Notes under the pieces: generated by a model
Told to the model about the DNA's origin: nothing
The model's database searches: none
Seen by the model: only the letters and a program-made list of their open reading frames with translations
Position numbers and translations under genes: made by a program
From: a virus
Strand: one strand, 5' to 3'
IMG/VR virus record: IMGVR_UViG_3300009152_000093
Coordinates: 1-38,306 of that record
Length of the DNA stretch: 38,306 nucleotides
In this document: positions 7,146 through 36,533 of the stretch, piece by piece
Layout: every line of letters starts with the position of its first letter
Position numbering within the stretch: position 1 is the stretch's first letter

Positions 7146-7546
7146 TGGGTTGGGTCACCCTATCGGCAGCAGCCAATCGGGTGGCCTTCAACCGCCTGGG
7201 CAGCGTCAGCGTTGTGGCTGGCGCTGTCACCGGGCAAGGCTTTCTCTCTCAAAACTCCGAGATGATCCTCGGCGGCGAGATCACGATCATCGATTATTTG
7301 CTGACCGTCCCCACCAGCACCTTCGGCAGCCTGAGCTATGGCGACCTGGTGACGGTTGATGGCACCAGCTACAAGTGCGAAACCCAGCCGCAGCGCTTCG
7401 ACGACGGCAGCTTCTGCCGGGTGCCGCTGGTGAAATTGACAGCAGAAGAAGCTATGGCCTACATCCTTGACGGTGGCGCGGCGCCAACACCGACCACCCC
7501 AACTCCGGCCCCGGTTGATTTCATCTACGACGGTGGCCACGCATGA
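7145..7546 (+). CDS. Head-tail attachment protein (gpFII-like)
   Basis: This 133-residue protein occupies the position of lambda FII, which completes the head connector so that a tail can join. It has a short N-terminal helix (SAAANRVAFNRLG) and then a beta-rich domain (SEMILGGEITIIDYLLTVPTS, SYGDLVTVDGTSYKCETQP, FCRVPLVKL) that fits the small barrel of the FII family. A proline/threonine-rich tail follows (APTPTTPTPAP). It is joined to the decoration gene by TGATG and overlaps the fibre gene by four bases (ATGA), so the head operon runs directly into the fibre cassette. The call is from position, size and fold pattern; the sequence similarity is weak. Confidence 0.7.
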   Translation: MGWVTLSAAANRVAFNRLGSVSVVAGAVTGQGFLSQNSEMILGGEITIIDYLLTVPTSTFGSLSYGDLVTVDGTSYKCETQPQRFDDGSFCRVPLVKLTAEEAMAYILDGGAAPTPTTPTPAPVDFIYDGGHA

Positions 7547-8709
7547 CCACTCAAACCATCCCGGCACGGATTGTCTTTAGGCGCGACACGGCGGCAGCGT
7601 GGACTGCTGCCAATCCCGTGCTGCTCAATGGCGAACTGGGCCTTGAGACTGACACCCGAAAGCTGAAGATGGGCGACGGTGCCAGCACCTGGGGCTCGCT
7701 TGCTTACTACTCCACCAGCAGCGGCGGCAGCGGCAACACCATCCTGAGCGGCAGCGGCGCCCCCAGCGGCGCCCTGGGCGTCAACGGCGACATCTATCTG
7801 GACACGGCAGCCACGCGCCTGTATGGCCCCAAGGCGGCCGGCGCGTGGGGCTCTGGCGTTGCGCTGATCGGCGCGCCAGGCGCCAACGGAACCAACGGCA
7901 CAAACGGCACCGCTGGCACCAACGGCACCGCCGCAACCGTCAGCGTTGGCACCGTCACCACTGGAGCGGCAGGCAGCTCGGCCAGTGTCACGAACACCGG
8001 CACCAGCGGCGCCGCCGTGCTGGCGTTCACCATCCCTCGCGGCGACGCCGGGACCAACGGCACCAACGGAACCGCTGGCACGAACGGCACAGCTGCAACG
8101 GTGGCGGTCGGCACGGTCACCACCGGCGCCGCTGGCAGCTCTGCATCCGTTACCAACTCAGGCACCAGCAGCGCGGCCACGCTGAATTTCACGATTCCCC
8201 GAGGCGACGCAGGGACGAACGGAACCAACGGGACGAACGGGACCAACGGCACAGCCGCCACGATCTCTGTTGGGACCGTCACCACCGGCGCCGCTGGCAC
8301 CTCCGCCAGCGTCACGAACACCGGCACCAGTTCGGCTGCCATTTTCAACTTCACGATCCCCCGAGGCGATACCGGCGCCGGTGGTGGTGGCAGCGGCACA
8401 ATTCCAACCCAATCACTGGCATACAGCGCCAGTATCGAGCTAGATCTAGCAACGCTCACCGGAACGCATCAACTACTCACCTTAACCGGAGCGGTTTCGT
8501 TCACAGCAATCAACCTTTCACTGGGAAGATGGGTGACCATTTTTATAGAACCTGGCGCAGCTAATCGAACGTTGACATTCCCGGCAGGGTGGGTATTCCT
8601 GAGTAACAAGCCCGCCACGCAGACTGCAAATAAGTCGGCAGTGCTGACCATTAAGGCCAATGGCGCTTCGTCAGCGGACATTCGTGCCGCCTGGAAGGAA
8701 TCGCCATGA
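7543..8709 (+). CDS. Tail fibre with Mtd-N-like head and collagen-like repeats
   Basis: This 388-residue protein begins with an N-terminal domain of the major tropism determinant type (ARIVFRRDTAAAWTAANPVL, LNGELGLETDTRKLKMGDG, WGSLAYY), used by many fibres to dock onto the phage baseplate. Residues about 110-285 hold three 54-residue units. Each has a Gly-Thr-Asn-rich collagen-like run and a beta segment (VGTVTTGAAGSSASVTNTGT, then FTIPRGDAG). The C-terminal 100 residues form a beta-rich domain (LTGTHQLLTLTGAVSFTAIN) that may bind receptor, and its base composition is more AT-rich than the repeats. It overlaps the genes before and after by four bases each. No reverse transcriptase or template repeat accompanies it, so the Mtd-N domain does not imply a diversity-generating system here. 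Confidence 0.85.
   Translation: MTTQTIPARIVFRRDTAAAWTAANPVLLNGELGLETDTRKLKMGDGASTWGSLAYYSTSSGGSGNTILSGSGAPSGALGVNGDIYLDTAATRLYGPKAAGAWGSGVALIGAPGANGTNGTNGTAGTNGTAATVSVGTVTTGAAGSSASVTNTGTSGAAVLAFTIPRGDAGTNGTNGTAGTNGTAATVAVGTVTTGAAGSSASVTNSGTSSAATLNFTIPRGDAGTNGTNGTNGTNGTAATISVGTVTTGAAGTSASVTNTGTSSAAIFNFTIPRGDTGAGGGGSGTIPTQSLAYSASIELDLATLTGTHQLLTLTGAVSFTAINLSLGRWVTIFIEPGAANRTLTFPAGWVFLSNKPATQTANKSAVLTIKANGASSADIRAAWKESP
7930..8391 (+). repeat. Three 162-bp tandem units in the fibre gene
   Basis: Units begin near 7930, 8092 and 8254 and encode 54 residues each; the third is cut short at its GTN-rich end. The Gly-Thr-Asn triplets and the VGTVTTGAAG core are nearly invariant while silent sites differ. 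This suggests old duplications with room for length change by recombination. Confidence 0.75.
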
Positions 8710-13300: not shown

Positions 13301-13737
13301 CGGGGTACGCCAGCGGCGCTGGGACGATCACGGCGGCCGATTCGGTGCTGAGCGCCATTCAGAAGCTGAACGGGAATGTCGCCCAGGCAACACAGTGGAA
13401 TCTTCGCCAGACCGTCACGGCGGCATCCGGCACCTACGCCTTGGATGTCACAGCCGCCAGTGAGTTCGTGACGGCTGCCGCCATCGCTGGCACCACCACA
13501 ATCAACCTGAGCAACCTGGCCAGCATCCCCACCAACTACGTGTGGCGAGGTGTGCTGTCGTTCAGCTACACCAGCGGCACCATCAACTGGTTTGCGGGCA
13601 ACTCTGGCTACAGCGTGAGATGGGACGGTGGATCAGCGATCGCCCCAACGGCCAGCGAGGTTGAGAAGGTCGTGATTGAAGTCGTGGGAGGCAGCACAGT
13701 TATTGAGGTTGCCGCACTCAAGGGGAGGGCTGCGTAA
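10366..13737 (+). CDS. Large tail spike/fibre with beta-helix domain
   Basis: This 1123-residue protein has a baseplate-docking start found in many fibres (DITISGLPNATILTGSERVP, then VGLGSVDNTSDADKPLS). Residues 125-480 look like a right-handed beta-helix of the pectate-lyase type. It opens with VYVSPSGNDANNGTSPGEPL and PGNLVVVGSGTYTEAALPI, and later rungs carry a LVTNDGYAQLVSFFGTF strand. Residues 520-790 contain two similar beta modules (HEYVGGGTVTVGGTSYDVV; HEYVSGGTVAIGGTDYGVA). The final part has DKAKLDGIASGATGFSEAQV, usual in fibre shafts, and a terminal beta domain. No intramolecular chaperone or clear catalytic triad is visible, so glycan binding or depolymerase activity cannot be separated. 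It ends by TAATG overlap with the propeller gene. Confidence 0.83.
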   Translation: MADITISGLPNATILTGSERVPMDQGATTVDASTQAIANLATKTTVGLGSVDNTSDADKPLSSATLAALSNKVSTSDASVSNAREWTAATATEVEARAGTGTTRRAWTAQAVRWNVLEALTAFRDANRVYVSPSGNDANNGTSPGEPLRTLAAAAAAAQPGNLVVVGSGTYTEAALPIRWKRNIGLLCSGLRNTTVGPAAGQEMKDIFKVDSGFWCWGLEFAGHQANSATGDLSWAISFNELADNRGIGAVGLGAYILKSPYIQNCSSITAEDDSGTAGSVSTGDTGGGILVDGSKCAANSPIRSMVVDSYTQVNLGGPGCLVTNDGYAQLVSFFGTFCQYHVKTLTGGQVNLSGGGTSDFGIYGLVADGYSPRPVFTGKSRVSKFGAARIEKAVTINDTTNTFTCTAHGLSANDQVVFQASMGTLPAPLATGAVYFVRSASLTADTFTISATSGGSILDITEPGVGTYAVIRQGVTEVDVIGFSANRLGRQIKYPTAGSLGASGRPVTISAASGTTFAITLDTSAIAHEYVGGGTVTVGGTSYDVVAATYNNTTGATTVRATGYTPTVGASVTLAGLSFICNSSSRPNAGQLMFPQLVFPRNASTGAAESKTFTYTRTSVYTFTYTEAASPSGPDHEYVSGGTVAIGGTDYGVAGAVYDKTSGLTTITTVTALPGASTGSVTVNGLAFICPTSGYIVTSSVPIDASGNTVANDSNSRAGYRVQFFSGTNGGLKNSLAVDQTLDFRQRSQISAPSHTFEYVGSGTNYNALPWNGGVPIPANKIVETNNGRVYSSNTDELGNFAVGTQFTVDGTSGTVTINTDQFNLSGLNFIGPFSRNGGISTVGEQLREVSNNTSLYASTGAADGNTAPTQFAVKTYADNKFLQAVTTTAGQPISVSDTSTVDAQGFQTRNRNITLSLNVANGLVRLDGSALVPVALLPAATTLAAGAMSSSDKAKLDGIASGATGFSEAQVRSTVLTGYASGAGTITAADSVLSAIQKLNGNVAQATQWNLRQTVTAASGTYALDVTAASEFVTAAAIAGTTTINLSNLASIPTNYVWRGVLSFSYTSGTINWFAGNSGYSVRWDGGSAIAPTASEVEKVVIEVVGGSTVIEVAALKGRAA

Positions 13738-14489
13738 TGCTGAGGCGTAGGGCTTTGTTGGCGGCGACGAATCGTGGTTCGGGGTTGGGTAACTTCGTGG
13801 GCACGGGCCAGACGACTTTGAACTGGGTTGACATGACAACGCGAGGCAGCGATGTTTACTGCTGTGTGTACAGCGGCGACATCTACAAACAGACGGGGGG
13901 GACTGGCAATTTCGTGGCTTTGGGGCAGGCGACTAGGCTCTGGCAAGGACTGACAACGCTAGGCAGCGATATTTATTGCTGTGTTGTCGGCGGCGACATC
14001 TACAAACAGACGGGGGGGACTGGCAATTTCGTGGCTTTGGGGCAGACGGCTAGGCCCTGGAATGGAATGACAACGCTAGGCAGCGATGTTTATTGCTGTG
14101 TTGGCGGCGGCGACATCTACAAGCAGACGGGAGGAACTGGCAATTTCGTGGCTTTGGGCCAGACGAGTAGGGGGTGGAATGGAATGACAACGCTAGGCAG
14201 CGATGTTTATTGCTGTGTGTACGACGGCGACATCTACAAACAGACGGGGGGGACTGGCAATTTCGTGGCTTTGGGGCAGACGGCTAGGACATGGTGGCGC
14301 ATGACAACGCTAGGCAGCGATATTTATTGCAGTCATTACAGCGGCGACATCTACAAACGGACGGGGGGGACTGGCAATTTTTTGCCTCTAGGCCAGGTGA
14401 ATAGATCCTGGACTGGCATGACAACGCTAGGCAGCGATGTTTACTGCAGTGTTAGCTTCGGCGACATCTACAAGGCCAGTTCCATGTAA
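13737..14489 (+). CDS. Six-repeat propeller lectin-like protein
   Basis: After about 16 basic residues this 250-residue protein consists of six copies of a 39-residue unit. The consensus is GGTGNFVALGQ, then x-x-R-x-W-x-x-MTTLGSDVYCCV, then x-x-GDIYKQT. The pattern of strands, the GDIY/SDVY turns and the number six match tectonin-like beta-propeller lectins that bind sugars at blade junctions. Residues that vary are grouped: unit positions 12-13, 15, 17-18 and 31-32 change while the frame stays nearly fixed at the DNA level. The gene starts within the stop of the large spike gene (TAATG), so it likely forms a receptor-binding tip or soluble decoration. No signal peptide is seen. Sugar binding is inferred, not shown. 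Confidence 0.7.
   Translation: MLRRRALLAATNRGSGLGNFVGTGQTTLNWVDMTTRGSDVYCCVYSGDIYKQTGGTGNFVALGQATRLWQGLTTLGSDIYCCVVGGDIYKQTGGTGNFVALGQTARPWNGMTTLGSDVYCCVGGGDIYKQTGGTGNFVALGQTSRGWNGMTTLGSDVYCCVYDGDIYKQTGGTGNFVALGQTARTWWRMTTLGSDIYCSHYSGDIYKRTGGTGNFLPLGQVNRSWTGMTTLGSDVYCSVSFGDIYKASSM
13896..14480 (+). repeat. 117-bp tandem repeats encoding propeller blades
   Basis: Near-identical 117-bp units start at 13896, 14013, 14130, 14247 and 14364, preceded by a more diverged first unit. Four of the five carry a seven-G run at their start; the unit at 14130 has GGGAGGAACT instead. Differences concentrate in the codons for the presumed binding loops. Confidence 0.9.
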
Positions 14490-14499
14490 CCACTAACCC

Positions 14500-15138
14500 A
14501 TGACCATCCTCAACCTCCTCACCAACGCCTACCCCGTCAGCCTCTACGAGGTGCGCCAGGCCAATCCGAACGTTTCCTTTCCCGCTGAGCCCACCGACGA
14601 GGACCTGGCCCCGTTCGGCCACGTCAACGTCCACCCCACGCCGCAGCCCGGTTGCGACCCGCGCACGCAGCGCATCGAGGGGCCAACTGCAGCCCGTGAC
14701 GCCGAGGGCGTCTACCGCCAGCAGTGGGTCGTCAGGGATGCAGCGGATGATGAGATCGCGGCCTATGACGAGGCAAACCCGCCTGCCCCGGACTGGGCAA
14801 CATTCAAGGGCGGCCTACTGATTAACGAATCTGTCGCGCAAATCATGGCGACTGCTCGCGCTGCCGGGCGCGAAATTGCCGTGACCAATCTGCCTGTAGC
14901 GCTGGAGAAGGCCACCAGCGGACAGCCCGCTGAGTTTGCCGCCTGCTGGGCCGTGGTCGCCGCCGCTGGTGCTGCCGAGCCCGAGGCCCTGGCGGCGCTG
15001 ACTGCAGCGGCCCAGGATTGCCACCTGCCGGCGGAGTTCGTGGCGACACTGGAGCCCAACCGCGAACGCGCCCACGACGAGCAGGGCCGATTCATCGCTG
15101 ACGATCCAGCAACGCCGCAGGACGAGGCGTGGGTATAG
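14500..15138 (+). CDS. Fibre-assembly-like protein, copy 2
   Basis: This 212-residue protein is a diverged relative of the 9615-10262 product. Shared elements are an N-terminal strand region, the motif DPRTQRIEGP, the block YRQQWVVRDAADDEIAAYDE and PPAPDWATFKGGL. A helical half and the phrase CHLPAEFVATL (GYHLPADLIRSLG in copy 1) follow. It lies directly after the spike and propeller genes, as copy 1 follows the first fibre and the glycine-rich adhesin. Each adhesin group thus has its own partner protein. A chaperone or trimerisation-helper role is the likeliest reading. Its C-terminal tail is acidic and hydrophilic. The stop codon TAG is followed by two partial copies of the junction motif. 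Confidence 0.6.
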   Translation: MTILNLLTNAYPVSLYEVRQANPNVSFPAEPTDEDLAPFGHVNVHPTPQPGCDPRTQRIEGPTAARDAEGVYRQQWVVRDAADDEIAAYDEANPPAPDWATFKGGLLINESVAQIMATARAAGREIAVTNLPVALEKATSGQPAEFAACWAVVAAAGAAEPEALAALTAAAQDCHLPAEFVATLEPNRERAHDEQGRFIADDPATPQDEAWV

Positions 15139-29593: not shown

Positions 29594-29825
29594 GGACGGC
29601 TGGCGGATGGATCCGAATCTCAGTCTGAGCAGGCAGCTGGAGTTGGAGCGCGCACGCCGGGAGATCCCCCGGCTCCACCGCCACGACCTGGAGGCCCGGC
29701 TGGATTCGGCGCTGGTCCATCTGACCACCATGGATCACTTGCTCCGCCAGGCCCTGGCGCGGGTGCAGGAGTTGGAAATCAAAGAAGCCTTAGCTGAACC
29801 GTATGCACCGAGGCACGAGGAATAG
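29592..29825 (+). CDS. Small helical hypothetical protein
   Basis: This 77-residue protein is nearly all helix. After MDGWRMDPNLSLSRQLELER comes a charged amphipathic helix (RARREIPRLHRHDLEARLDS) and a second one (TTMDHLLRQALARVQELEIK). Met6 (29607) is an alternative start. The last 47 bases overlap the 3' end of the sigma factor gene on the other strand, so the two transcripts converge. A variant junction motif lies just upstream, and another (CAGTCTGAG, 29621-29629) inside the first codons. It is the last gene of the rightward late operon. No function can be assigned; a coiled-coil adaptor is plausible. Confidence 0.55.
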   Translation: MDGWRMDPNLSLSRQLELERARREIPRLHRHDLEARLDSALVHLTTMDHLLRQALARVQELEIKEALAEPYAPRHEE

Positions 29826-30729
29826 GCCCGGGAGTTGCTGGCAGAACTGCGGCCAGGCCAGTCTCACTAGGGCGCTCCTTGCGCAGCTTGCCCATGGCAT
29901 TGGCCAGCATCTTCCGGACCTCCCCGACAGAAATGGCCTCCTGAGAGGCCAGCTGGGCAAGGGTGCGGGGCGGGCCATCCAGCCCCCAGCGGCCCGTAAT
30001 CAGCCGCTGCTCAATGGGGTCCAGTGCCGCCATCCGCTCCCGCAGTTCGTCGGCTTCGGGGTCTGGCTCTAGCTCTGCGGCTGCCGTCAGATCGCCCAAT
30101 GTCGAGGGGCTGCCATCACGATCGCCAGGCAGTGAAGCGTCAAGCGAATGGCAGCCGGCTGACACCAGCAGCAGGTGATCGAGATCGGCCTGGTTTACGT
30201 CAAGCACAATCGCCAGCTCTGCCCGGGTAGGGGCACGGCCGATCTCGGCGGCCAAGGCCGCGGCGGTCCTCCGTGCCCTGGACAGCAACTCAGTTTTTCC
30301 GGTCGAAACGCGGATGGTGCGACCGTGCCAGTCAACGTGACGGCTCAGCCCCTGGCGGATCCACCAGTAACAAAAGGTTGAGAACCTGTATCCCCGGGCC
30401 GGGTCGAACTTCTCCGCCCCGCGCTGGAGGCCGATCGCACCGGCCTGGAGCAGGTCGGGCAGATCGGCGTCGGGAATGTGCACCCCCAGGCCCGGCCGAG
30501 CCTTGCGGGTGACGTGGACCACCAGCCGCAGATTGGCCATGACCATCCGATCCCTAGCCCGCAGGCCCCGCCTGCGGACCGCTGGCGGGGCCTTGCCAGG
30601 CGCGGGCTCCCAGTCCTGCCAGACCCGCACCAGGCCGCCGAGGTGGATCTCCTCGGCCGGCGTCAGCATCGGAACCCGACCGGCCTGCCCCAACCAGTGG
30701 GTCACCATGTCGCCGCCGGTGGCTGCCAT
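29779..30729 (-). CDS. Phage-encoded sigma-70 family factor (cyanobacterial type)
   Basis: This 316-residue protein has all main sigma regions. Region 1.2 spans residues 8-38 (THWLGQAGRVPMLTPAEEIH). Region 2 spans 57-132, with NLRLVVHVTRKARPG, the RNA-polymerase-binding LPDLLQAGAIGL, and the -10 and melting segment GYRFSTFCYWWIRQGLSRHV. Region 3 spans about 135-200. Region 4 spans 228-284 with an altered HTH (RTLAQLASQEAISVGEVRKM). The region 1.2 wording is close to that of cyanobacterial group 1/2 sigma factors. It would redirect host RNA polymerase to phage promoters. It is near the end of the leftward early-type operon, three bases after a small membrane protein gene, suiting an early product that turns on late genes. 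The repeated CTAGCCTGA motif is a candidate target, by inference. Confidence 0.93.
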   Translation of the reverse strand: MAATGGDMVTHWLGQAGRVPMLTPAEEIHLGGLVRVWQDWEPAPGKAPPAVRRRGLRARDRMVMANLRLVVHVTRKARPGLGVHIPDADLPDLLQAGAIGLQRGAEKFDPARGYRFSTFCYWWIRQGLSRHVDWHGRTIRVSTGKTELLSRARRTAAALAAEIGRAPTRAELAIVLDVNQADLDHLLLVSAGCHSLDASLPGDRDGSPSTLGDLTAAAELEPDPEADELRERMAALDPIEQRLITGRWGLDGPPRTLAQLASQEAISVGEVRKMLANAMGKLRKERPSETGLAAVLPATPGPIPRASVHTVQLRLL

Positions 30730-33712: not shown

Positions 33713-35023
33713 TCACCAGCTACGCGGCCGAGCGTGGACTGCCCCAGCCGCCTCCACCACCAGGCTTTCCAGCACTGCTGCAAACATCGTGCGTTGCTCC
33801 TGAGGCGTCGCCCCAGCAAAGAACTCGGGATCTCTCAGCTGCACGGTGAGGCCATCGAGCTCCGGCGCCACCCTGGGCCGGCGGCTCAGACTCTCGATCT
33901 CCAGCCGTAGCATGTCGGCTGCTGGTGCCAATGCCGGGTTCCGCCGCGCCAGCCCCTCCAGCTGCTCGAGGTCACGACGCTTGGCGGCTACCGCCGGATC
34001 CTCGTCGGCCGGCATGGCATAGGCAGCCGCCAGGCGGTCAGCCGCCTCGACGCAGGCGGCCACCGCCAGCGGCAGCGCAGCGGCTTCCTTGATCACGGCA
34101 TGGTCGCCGCACAGGCGATGCCGACAGCGCCACCAGCCGGTCGAGCCGGAGGCGTTGCGGCGCAGGGTGTGGCCGCAGGCGCCGCACCGCAGCAGCCCGG
34201 TGAGGGCATGGCGGGCCTCGCCACCGTTGGAGCGGGTTAAGAACTGATTGGTCGGCCGCCTGAGGTGGCTGGCAAGTTCCTGCCATTCAGCCTCGCCGAT
34301 CAGGGCCGGGTGCTGGTCGTAGTGGATCTCACCCCACCGCTGGCCCCAACTCTTCCCTGATGTCTTATCGAGCTTGTGGCCGATGTGGCCGCGAATCACC
34401 GGATTGATAAACCAGGCCAGCAGGTTGCCGCCCCCGGGTGTCCACTCGCACCAGCTGGGCAGATCACGGATCACCTTCGAGAAGCTGCCCAGCTCACGCA
34501 GCCGCTCCAGCACTTTCAGCGCTTGGGGCCACTGTTCAGGGTGCGGCTCCAGCTTGTGGCCTGGGCCATTGCGGTAGCCAAAGGGTTTCCGGCGGCGCAG
34601 GTGGCGCCCCTGGGCCCGGTACTGGTCAAACTGGCTGCGAAGTCGCAGGCTCAGCATCCGGCTCTCAACCTCGGCCATGGTGGTGAGCAGCCGAGCCTGC
34701 AAAAATCCCTGAGGCGTGGCCGCTTCGATGGTGCCACCATCCAAGGCCACGACCTTCACCCCATGGATCGCACAAAGGGCCAGCAGCTCATCGGCAAACG
34801 CGGCATTCCGGCCCAGCCGATCGGCCCGGGTGATGGTCAACTCGCTGACCTTGCCGGTGCGCACTTGGGCCATCACCTCCGCCAGGCCCGGGCGGTCGTC
34901 GTTGCGTCCGCTCTCCATCTCCTGAACGATCCGATCGCAGCCGGCCGCTTGGAGCCTGGCCACCTGGGCCGGCAGGGAATCGGCCTGCTCTTCCTTGCTG
35001 ACGCGGGCGTAGCCGAGCTTCAT
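33713..35023 (-). CDS. Large serine recombinase / integrase (XisF-like)
   Basis: This 436-residue protein begins with the serine recombinase catalytic domain: YARVSKEEQADSLPAQVARL with nucleophile Ser9, then MESGRNDDRPGLAEVMAQVR and TRADRLGRN (about 65-73) with the conserved arginines. A recombinase domain follows (RRRKPFGYRNGPG, NPVIRGHIGHK). A zinc ribbon has Cys280, Cys283, Cys300 and Cys305 (CGACGHTLRRN... WRCRHRLCG), and then comes a coiled-coil helix. The layout resembles cyanobacterial XisF-type recombinases that excise DNA elements. It would integrate and excise the phage at att sites. A 14-bp inverted repeat 33-74 bases upstream of the start is a candidate target. A separate excision factor is not obvious. 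Confidence 0.93.
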   Translation of the reverse strand: MKLGYARVSKEEQADSLPAQVARLQAAGCDRIVQEMESGRNDDRPGLAEVMAQVRTGKVSELTITRADRLGRNAAFADELLALCAIHGVKVVALDGGTIEAATPQGFLQARLLTTMAEVESRMLSLRLRSQFDQYRAQGRHLRRRKPFGYRNGPGHKLEPHPEQWPQALKVLERLRELGSFSKVIRDLPSWCEWTPGGGNLLAWFINPVIRGHIGHKLDKTSGKSWGQRWGEIHYDQHPALIGEAEWQELASHLRRPTNQFLTRSNGGEARHALTGLLRCGACGHTLRRNASGSTGWWRCRHRLCGDHAVIKEAAALPLAVAACVEAADRLAAAYAMPADEDPAVAAKRRDLEQLEGLARRNPALAPAADMLRLEIESLSRRPRVAPELDGLTVQLRDPEFFAGATPQEQRTMFAAVLESLVVEAAGAVHARPRSW

Positions 35024-35055: not shown

Positions 35056-35097
35056 GTGCTCTTTTGACGTTTTCTTTAGATAGCGTCAAAAGAGCAC
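35056..35097. repeat. Perfect 14-bp inverted repeat upstream of the integrase
   Basis: GTGCTCTTTTGACG (35056-35069) and its exact complement (35084-35097) flank 14 bases rich in A/T. Further GTGCTC half-copies lie at 35041 and 35113. Each arm contains TTGACG, a -35-like hexamer, pointing inward. It may be an attachment or recombinase-binding site, or an operator controlling both the leftward integrase and the rightward small genes. Confidence 0.75.
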
Positions 35098-35174: not shown

Positions 35175-35351
35175 ATGACCACCGTCACCTGGGCCCTGGC
35201 CCTGCTGCTCATCCCTGTCTTGCTGCTCGCCTGGATCCTCGAAACCGACCGCGACCGTGCCCGCCGCTGGAGGCGCCAGGGGCTCAGCCAGCAGCGCATC
35301 GCCGATCAGATCGGCTGCTCCCGCTGGAGGGTGCGGCAGATGCTGACGTAA
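35175..35351 (+). CDS. 58-residue protein with membrane helix and HTH
   Basis: The product starts MTTVTWALALLLIPVLLLAW, one clear transmembrane helix, continues with a highly charged stretch (ETDRDRARRWRR) and ends with QGLSQQRIADQIGCSRWRVR. That end reads as a helix-turn-helix of the resolvase/transposase HTH kind. A membrane-anchored DNA-binding peptide of this size is unusual. It is the first rightward gene after the divergent integrase, so it may take part in the lysogeny or excision switch, for example as a recombination directionality factor. That role is a guess; the domains are visible. After the stop, CGTAAC (35347-35352) and GTTACG (35359-35364) form a small inverted repeat. Confidence 0.65.
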   Translation: MTTVTWALALLLIPVLLLAWILETDRDRARRWRRQGLSQQRIADQIGCSRWRVRQMLT

Positions 35352-35397
35352 CGGGCGTGTTACGCCTTGTGAACTGGCTGGGCTGACCTTTGCTATC

Positions 35398-35441
35398 CCG
35401 TCACAGATGCGCTAAGGTATGTGCATCGGGGGGAGAGATCC
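35398..35441 (+). promoter_or_regulatory. Promoter/leader element, copy A
   Basis: This 44-base element is 38/44 identical to copy B at 36208. It contains CCGTCAC, GCGC, a TANNNT box TAAGGT (35413-35418) and the invariant CGGGGGGAGAGATCC (35427-35441). The ATG of the next gene lies 26 bases after its end. A promoter plus purine-rich 5' leader is the simplest reading, with TTGCTA (35390-35395) as a weak -35, 17 bases upstream. Confidence 0.65.
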
Positions 35442-35466
35442 ACCGGTTCCCATCGCACTCCAATCC

Positions 35467-35613
35467 ATGACCAAGACTCAAGCCATCTCCGCTCTGATCC
35501 TCGCCCGCGTCTCCGAAGGCGCCACCGTCAAAGAAGCATTTGAGATCGTTATCGGGCCTGGCTCCTTTGAGCAGCTGGCTGGTGAAGTCTGGGAAGCCAT
35601 GCAAGCCGCCTGA
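35467..35613 (+). CDS. 48-residue hypothetical protein
   Basis: The ATG at 35467 is preferred because it follows the promoter/leader copy A; an earlier in-frame ATG at 35419 falls inside that element. The 48-residue product is acidic and helical (TKTQAISALILARVSEGATV, KEAFEIVIGPGSFEQLAGEV, WEAMQAA). It reads like a small three-helix domain. It is not recognised. Its own promoter, shared in sequence with that of 36273, suggests it is switched on together with that gene. Confidence 0.6.
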   Translation: MTKTQAISALILARVSEGATVKEAFEIVIGPGSFEQLAGEVWEAMQAA

Positions 35614-35668
35614 CCCCCACGGCCGGCCGGGAGCCCATCCCGGCGACCCATCCCACTGCATCACCCTG

Positions 35669-35965
35669 ATGGCCACCCTGCGATGCCCATGCGGAAAGCT
35701 GCTGAACAATCACGCAGACAACAACGAAACACAGGGCTACTTGCTAACCGAGCAAGACGTTCTTGAGCATGAATACAGCCGTAATGAAGACGCAACTGAA
35801 TGGGCGCTCGAAGCTGGTCGCGGAGTCTGGGAATGCAAAAGCTGTGGCCGGCTGGCCTTCAACTGGCCGTTTCGCAGCATGAGCGACGTGAAGTGGTACG
35901 CGCCCGAAGACGGTCAGCCCGGACGACTCATGGCGCAAACCCGCTACGAGATCAACAATGCCTGA
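35669..35965 (+). CDS. Small zinc-ribbon-like hypothetical protein
   Basis: The ATG at 35669 gives 98 residues beginning MATLRCPCGKLLNNHAD. The first cysteine pair (CPC) and a later CKSCGRLAFNW could form a zinc ribbon around a helical insert (QDVLEHEYSRNEDATEWALE). The C-terminal end is hydrophilic with a WYAPEDGQPG turn. A longer in-frame start (35540) would overlap the previous gene and lacks protein-like sequence. The last eight bases overlap the next gene (ATGCCTGA). No function is recognised; small zinc ribbons in phage early regions often bind host proteins or nucleic acid. Confidence 0.6.
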   Translation: MATLRCPCGKLLNNHADNNETQGYLLTEQDVLEHEYSRNEDATEWALEAGRGVWECKSCGRLAFNWPFRSMSDVKWYAPEDGQPGRLMAQTRYEINNA

Positions 35966-36182
35966 CCCCACCGCCGCCGACCGCAGCCGCCGCTACCGCG
36001 AGCGCCAGGCCGGGCGGCTGCCGCCAGCGCAGCGGCCAACATGCCAAGCCTGCGGGATCCTGCACACCGGCGCCCGTGGGCTGCTGTGCTCCAGGTGCTG
36101 GACCCGCCTGACCCCAGAAGGCCGAGCCGATCGAGCGGACCGGGTGCGGCGAGCACAGAAGCGCAGGCGTGACGGATTGTGA
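35958..36182 (+). CDS. Small basic zinc-finger-like protein
   Basis: This 74-residue protein is very basic. It starts with TAADRSRRYRERQAGR, a helix common to small phage DNA-binding proteins, followed by CQACGILHTGARGLLCSRCW, a CxxC...CxxC metal site, and an arginine-rich C-terminal helix (GRADRADRVRRAQKRRRDG). It probably binds DNA or RNA. It overlaps the preceding zinc-ribbon gene by eight bases, so the two are coexpressed. It is not recognised beyond these features. Confidence 0.65.
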   Translation: MPDPTAADRSRRYRERQAGRLPPAQRPTCQACGILHTGARGLLCSRCWTRLTPEGRADRADRVRRAQKRRRDGL

Positions 36183-36207
36183 AGTGGTCAGCCGTTGGCC
36201 TGCCATG

Positions 36208-36251
36208 CCGTCACGGGTGCGCTAAGATAAGTTCACCGGGGGGAGAGATCC
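36208..36251 (+). promoter_or_regulatory. Promoter/leader element, copy B
   Basis: This is the second copy of the 44-base element, with TAAGAT (36223-36228) as TANNNT box and the invariant CGGGGGGAGAGATCC (36237-36251). The next ATG is 22 bases after its end. Differences from copy A are confined to six positions around the -10 box. The purine-rich block is too far from the ATG for ordinary ribosome binding, so it may be an operator or an RNA element. Confidence 0.65.
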
Positions 36252-36272
36252 CGCCACCACCCACCACCAGCC

Positions 36273-36500
36273 ATGACCGCTTTCATTACTGAGCACCGCT
36301 ATCCCTGCCTTGCCGCCCAAGAGGCTTGCGGTTCAAGCGCCTATCACGGTTGGATGAAGCCCGCAGGCTTTAACGCTTCATGGCGTGCCGCTAAAGCTGA
36401 ATCAGAAGGTGATGCGTCAAGGGCCGAGCGTGAGCACGCCAGCCGCATCGCGCTTGTGCCTTACCCCTGGGCCGGGATCTACAAAGCTTTCAGCCTCTGA
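36273..36500 (+). CDS. 75-residue hypothetical protein
   Basis: This 75-residue protein starts MTAFITEHRYPCLAAQEACG and contains SAYHGWMKPAGFNASWRAAK, a helical charged middle (AESEGDASRAEREHASRIAL) and the end VPYPWAGIYKAFSL. Its codons include more T-ending ones than neighbours. It is preceded by promoter copy B and followed eight bases after its stop by a strong terminator, so it is a single-gene transcription unit (with possible read-in from the left). It is not recognised. Confidence 0.55.
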   Translation: MTAFITEHRYPCLAAQEACGSSAYHGWMKPAGFNASWRAAKAESEGDASRAEREHASRIALVPYPWAGIYKAFSL

Positions 36501-36508
36501 CCCCCACC

Positions 36509-36533
36509 GCCCCCGGTCACCCGGGGGCTTTTT
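36509..36533 (+). terminator. Strong rightward terminator
   Basis: GCCCCCGG (36509-36516) pairs perfectly with CCGGGGGC (36521-36528) around TCAC, followed by TTTTT. It closes the rightward small-gene group. Confidence 0.92.

Follow-up and report, generated by a model that had tools for sequence, protein, structure and literature searches.

Multi-copy promoter/leader elements are already known as a type in phages, and the element described here adds another form. The nearest described system is the promoter early stem-loops (PeSLs) of T4-type phages (Arbiol 2010; Comeau 2014; both as cited in PMC4503421). As far as that citation describes them, PeSLs resemble our element in being multi-copy promoter and stem-loop units between small unrelated phage ORFs, but they are titled promoter-terminator composites, whereas our hairpin is instead predicted to open the transcript. 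Here too, small variable genes are preceded by promoter copies (1–5 per record, 65 families); a stem-loop serving as terminator was not found among 99 elements. Start-associated sequences (SAS/ESAS) of Cluster K mycobacteriophages, whose function is unknown (PMC3203893), are likewise short conserved multi-copy phage motifs that precede many families and are rare or absent in hosts. However, SAS is a fixed 13-mer at the start codon, while our element is variable in sequence and has a hairpin tied to a promoter. The leader hairpins seen here differ in sequence from the 13-bp SAS GGGATAGGAGCCC and are not at the translation start but about 20 nt ahead of the ATG.

The ompA and papA mRNAs have 5′-terminal stabilising stem-loops, and hairpins at the mRNA 5′ end impede RppH and stabilise mRNA (reviewed in PMC3997798). 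As in that type, the hairpin of our element lies a few nucleotides from the (predicted) 5′ end; a distance of at most about 4 nt fits if the RNA starts at the conserved A, as predicted. Unlike that type, the element appears to bring a conserved promoter along and occurs before many genes. In lambda antitermination, the N protein binds boxB. Our element is similar in combining a small purine-loop leader hairpin with a small Arg-rich protein from the same region; this protein, g3, is encoded nearby and co-occurs with the element, and an RNA-binding role is putative. It is dissimilar in that there is no conserved boxA, the hairpin is at +4, g3 has a zinc ribbon, and the island in the window is closed by a terminator and convergent genes.

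Results

The window (the whole stretch of 38,306 nucleotides analysed, IMG/VR virus record IMGVR_UViG_3300009152_000093) encodes a terminase 54–55% identical to those of Synechococcus phages S-CBS3 and S-CBS1 and 45% identical to that of S-LBS1. It also encodes a sigma factor (29779–30729) and a serine integrase (33713–35023), both on the minus strand. A perfect 14-bp inverted repeat (GTGCTCTTTTGACG-N14-CGTCAAAAGAGCAC, 35056–35097) just 5′ of the integrase start is a candidate attP or integrase operator. Both element copies lie within a short plus-strand island of small genes (35175–36500), which is flanked by genes on the opposite strand and closed by an intrinsic terminator (36509–36533, plus strand; GCCCCCGGTCACCCGGGGGC then TTTTT). 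The island starts with a 58-aa protein with a hydrophobic N-terminus and a sigma-r4-like helix-turn-helix (HTH; 35175–35351), which in relatives is often directly 5′ of element 1. The 48-aa ORF behind element 1 (g1, 35467–35613) has no PHROG or Pfam match and belongs to no known family. It is followed by g2 (98 aa, 35669–35965), g3 (74 aa, 35958–36182, between both copies) and, behind element 2, g4 (75 aa, 36273–36500); g2 and g4 also belong to no known family.

The 15-mer CGGGGGGAGAGATCC occurs exactly at 35427–35441 and 36237–36251, both on the plus strand, and no further site with up to two mismatches was found in the window. A first-pass annotation had described a promoter-like element shared at 38 of 44 positions before two unrelated genes, and this is borne out: 35398–35441 and 36208–36251 agree at 38/44, and g1 and g4 were assigned to different families. 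The repeat is longer than described (43/51 identical between 35391–35441 and 36201–36251), and an ungapped match of this quality is expected by chance about 2e-8 times; exact repeated 15-mers are not rare (1–11 per shuffled window). Similarity between the copies extends further 5′ to GTGAACTGGCT (35369–35379) and GTGAAGTGGTC (36179–36189), which belong to a motif conserved in relatives, and begins as far 5′ as GTGAACTGG. The 15-mer follows a −10 hexamer in both copies, as annotated (TAAGGT at 35413–35418 and TAAGAT at 36223–36228), and from its 3′ end it is 25 nt to the ATG at 35467 and 21 nt to that at 36273.

Element 1 (plus strand) has upstream boxes GTTACG and GTGAACTGGCT in 10-bp phase (35359–35379), which align with GTGACG-N4-GTGAACTGGCC of relatives. 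Its core promoter (35390–35418), supported by an information profile over 100 non-redundant elements and scored at 67.2 bits by sequence model R1, consists of a weak −35 (TTGCTA, 35390–35395), the box CCGTCACA (35398–35405) and the −10. The predicted start A35425 and 5′-terminal hairpin (35425–35447, including the 15-mer) are based on the fold, the positional minimum free energy (MFE) peak and compensatory pairs in relatives. Element 2 (plus strand) has upstream boxes GTGACG and GTGAAGTGGTC (36169–36189) overlapping the 3′ terminus of g3, including its stop codon, a core promoter (36208–36228, box CCGTCACG at 36208–36215; same profile and model R1, 70.8 bits), and a predicted start A36235 with a 5′-terminal hairpin (36235–36255; −11.6 kcal/mol). 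This hairpin (36238–36255) has a GAGA loop, and the 15-mer at 36237–36251 is part of it. The window allele is GGGGGGA-GAGA-TCC, and its 3′ arm runs past the block with one mismatch. In element 1 the predicted stem is interrupted by unpaired bases, and this fold has a low probability within its ensemble, so this copy alone is no proof of a hairpin.

Scanning IMG/VR with the 15-mer returned 42 stretches, over a third of which had the entire upstream pattern; many matches were unrelated chance matches or other hairpins (e.g., L005, L018, and L027). A scan with the upstream boxes alone, leaving out the block, returned 17 viral stretches and a second one 68, and the spacing within them is nearly constant. 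Model R1 located the element in 41/45 records, with 1–5 copies each on a single strand within a record, and did not find it in S-LBS1, S-CBS1, S-CBS3, or KBS-S-2A. The earlier proposal of a small regulon next to the integrase is supported, with two sites in the window and one to five in relatives. The consensus is GTGAC-N5-GTGAACTGGCC-N20-GTNACG-N5-TANNNT; among 100 non-redundant elements, GTGACG starts at about −66, GTGAACTGGCC at about −56 and CCGTNACG at about −27. The GTNAC repeats are spaced by 10 and 31 bp, which places the boxes on one helix face.

This anatomy is promoter-like. The −10 has the sigma-70 form TANNNT with a start purine 6–9 nt downstream, although the hexamer also anchored the alignment, and a conserved A (1.5 bits over the 100 elements) is at the expected start 7 nt after it. 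Where a −35 TTGACA would lie, at 16–18 nt, the elements show only weak similarity to CTGCCA (at most 0.6 bits), and a promoter scanner found no −35. The ATG is a median of 49 nt from the start of the −10. Downstream of the hairpin the leader is A/C-rich and lacks a Shine-Dalgarno-like 4-mer in 88 of 93 cases, in agreement with the earlier view that the block is not a ribosome-binding site. No strongly conserved or boxA-like block was found in the 20 nt 3′ of the hairpin (100 elements), and no Rfam covariance model matched the window at E up to 1. Behind 93 of the 100 elements are 65 ORF families, mostly tiny (median 71 aa). Judged from its sequence, the element is a widespread switch of about 95 bp in cyanobacterial viruses, a putative promoter with a small hairpin at the start of the RNA. 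We found no account of it in the literature searched, which is not proof of absence; as far as could be found, it is previously undescribed.

The 15-mer itself had been called invariant, but it is exact in only 10 of 100 non-redundant relatives, and on this comparison it is just one allele of the element. The blocks of relatives usually differ and still fold back on themselves (GGAGGG-GAGG-CCCTCC, GGAGGC-GAGA-GCTTCC, GGAGCC-GAAA-GGTTCC, GGGAGG-GAGA-CCTCCC). Own arms pair at −11.28 kcal/mol, compared to −9.00 ± 0.16 for swapped arms (0/200); in a first set of 54 the values were −10.75 and about −8.5 kcal/mol. In a fixed alignment of 24 sequences, whose rows were picked mostly for pairing in that register, 95.8% of cells were paired, compared to 40–65% when slid; in the unselected fixed register, 78% were paired and 31–64% when slid. 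Four of six stem pairs changed on both sides, and the covariation score was reached in 0/500 shuffles. MFE peaks at the leader start (−11.3; windows that do not overlap it reach −2 to −7). The hairpin starts at +4, three bases after the conserved A, and is locked to the −10 in 71/100 elements; the start codon position is looser. These comparisons demonstrate selection at the RNA level on the predicted 5′-proximal hairpin.

The loop is kept as GARR while the stem sequence varies. Among 39 distinct stems, loops were GAGA in 13, GAGG in nine and GAAA in five, position 2 was A in 82%, and no UUCG loop was found. The first-pass annotation had named absence of the block before homologous genes as grounds for rejection, and for the 15-mer as a sequence such absence was found: a 94% identical homologue of g1 lies behind an element of contig L049 with another hairpin allele, GGAGGG-GAGG-CCCTCC, in place of CGGGGGGAGAGATCC. 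Its proposed place in the RNA leader is supported, but reading it as an invariant, regulator-binding block is too restrictive, because what is conserved is the hairpin, its loop and upstream promoter boxes that had not been listed. An intrinsic terminator was rejected as the function of the hairpin, as 0/99 leader hairpins are followed by a T run; a terminator lies 5′ of the element in only 7/99. A perfect hairpin formed by GGGGGGAGAGATCCCCCC follows GTGTGACAATCCGCAAGGTGTCACAG in another phage group, where it lacks the promoter pattern (L008:5078–5092; also L010, L012, and L034). Beside the element island of L061 (2441–2510), two short GC-rich hairpin repeats 50 bp apart (TTCCCCGCAAGCGCGGGGA and TTCCCTGCACACGCGGGGA) resemble type I-E CRISPR repeats.

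The most widely shared gene around the element is g3 (19 contigs, compared to 13 for the next real gene family). It is present in 25/26 element-bearing records and in 0/4 element-less cyanophages. When contigs were fetched through g3 alone, 39 of 46 new ones had an element within 3 kb, always on the g3 strand, and some of the remainder show diverged elements; a reversed-sequence control gave none. Element 2 often overlaps the g3 stop codon. The protein has an invariant CxxC..CxxCW motif; its N-terminal helix is rich in Arg and its C-terminal helix is basic, and it weakly resembles zinc-type ribosomal protein S14 (E 0.03); Foldseek and VIA gave no significant fold match, the zinc ribbon being too small to judge. 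Neither g3 nor the DNA element matched any of 50,697 phage records, and g3 matched none of 72,556 plasmids, so no cultured model was found. The collection scan used the narrower alignment A4, as A3 was too diverse. Its association with the element makes g3 a candidate regulator of the cassette, although linkage in one syntenic island may explain part of this association.

The first genome scan, for the exact 15-mer in promoter context, returned nothing because the block varies. Two scans of 84,980 species genomes found a single locus, where three elements and g3 lie together on an 8-kb contig of the bin Synechococcaceae bacterium WB9_2_112. The element was found in none of 150 other genomes of the host family; g3 has weak matches in four other genomes of that family, none of them near an element. 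This distribution suggests that the element is a phage device. A host regulator of the HLR1/RpaB type (direct repeats, 10-bp period) was considered and set aside, since the boxes occur at chance level in six host-genus genomes (phage-like contig set apart).

Discussion

With moderate confidence, we favor a phage-specific expression cassette in which a 5′-terminal hairpin would shield the mRNA and g3 is the candidate activator. The upstream boxes (GTGAC, GTGAAC, GTNACG) and the −10 would form a promoter whose −35 is weak; transcription is predicted to begin at the conserved A 7 nt after the −10, with the GARR-loop hairpin three bases on and an unstructured A/C-rich leader without Shine-Dalgarno connecting it to the ATG. 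The boxes would be bound by an activator, either g3, the best candidate and itself behind element 1, or another phage factor. Cyanobacteria possess RNase E and RNase J (PMC10989914), and the hairpin may protect the mRNA from their 5′-end-dependent decay. Since cyanobacteria lack close homologues of the RppH proteins of E. coli and B. subtilis, decay would have to take another route. Shielding would allow strong output of tiny accessory or early genes in infection or lysogeny. Conservation of the loop exceeds the needs of a stabiliser, hinting at a specific binder, and recognition of the hairpin by a protein is a realistic possibility.

A less likely alternative is that g3 binds the GARR-loop hairpin, either as lambda N binds boxB or in the manner of a translational operator, and controls translation or elongation of each cassette. 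Conservation of GARR over 39 distinct stems with no UUCG loop, preference for A at position 2 beyond the need of a GNRA fold, co-occurrence of g3, and its helical Arg-rich N-terminus and zinc ribbon with weak S14 resemblance are consistent with this, but GAGG loops are not GNRA, g3 lacks a fold match, no boxA-like block follows the hairpin, and the hairpin is locked to the −10 rather than to the start codon. Antitermination is unlikely because there would be nothing to gain from it in the window, where a terminator and convergent genes follow the island. More broadly, element and g3 could be a two-part system of cyanophages in which g3 reads hairpin or boxes and switches a dispersed ORFan regulon; this would be a new kind of phage regulatory ribonucleoprotein, which we regard as possible but doubtful.

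It is unlikely that the GTNAC boxes are lysogeny repressor sites, which would make the hairpin incidental and place the cassettes under repression as an early regulon. The boxes are phased, multi-copy and next to the integrase in several contigs, and the HTH protein (35175–35351) often adjoins them; that protein, however, is in 13/19 contigs and also in element-less S-CBS3, and the hairpin is clearly under selection. Immunity operators usually diverge, whereas these boxes are near-identical among phages whose shared proteins are just about 45–75% identical. That the promoter is read by the phage-encoded sigma factor (29779–30729) is very improbable: a homologue is present in the window and 10 other element records (11/26, one being a bacterial bin with its own sigma factors), but it was not found in 15/26, some of which are fragments, and it is present in all four element-less cyanophages; its presence therefore does not follow that of the element. 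The distance of 810 bp between the copies might suggest chance or a recent duplication of a single gene-flanking segment, but this is refuted by relatives: the element is conserved before 65 families across dozens of contigs, and its stem shows compensatory changes.

The element offers a handle on ORFan genes of picocyanobacterial phages and a searchable signature for putative promoters, start sites and leaders in uncultured cyanophages. It also defines a regulon of tiny genes that probably act within the host or against it, and singles out a specific protein as candidate regulator. Should the hairpin protect phage mRNA, phages would have in it a response to mRNA decay in the host; should g3 bind the hairpin, the two would form a new regulatory RNA-protein pair.

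Other repeats were seen elsewhere in the window. Six tandem copies spaced by 117 bp (39 codons) at 13671–14555, largely within ORF 13737–14489, represent a repeat protein in the structural region, and three copies spaced by 162 bp (54 codons) lie at 7878–8375 within ORF 7543–8709.
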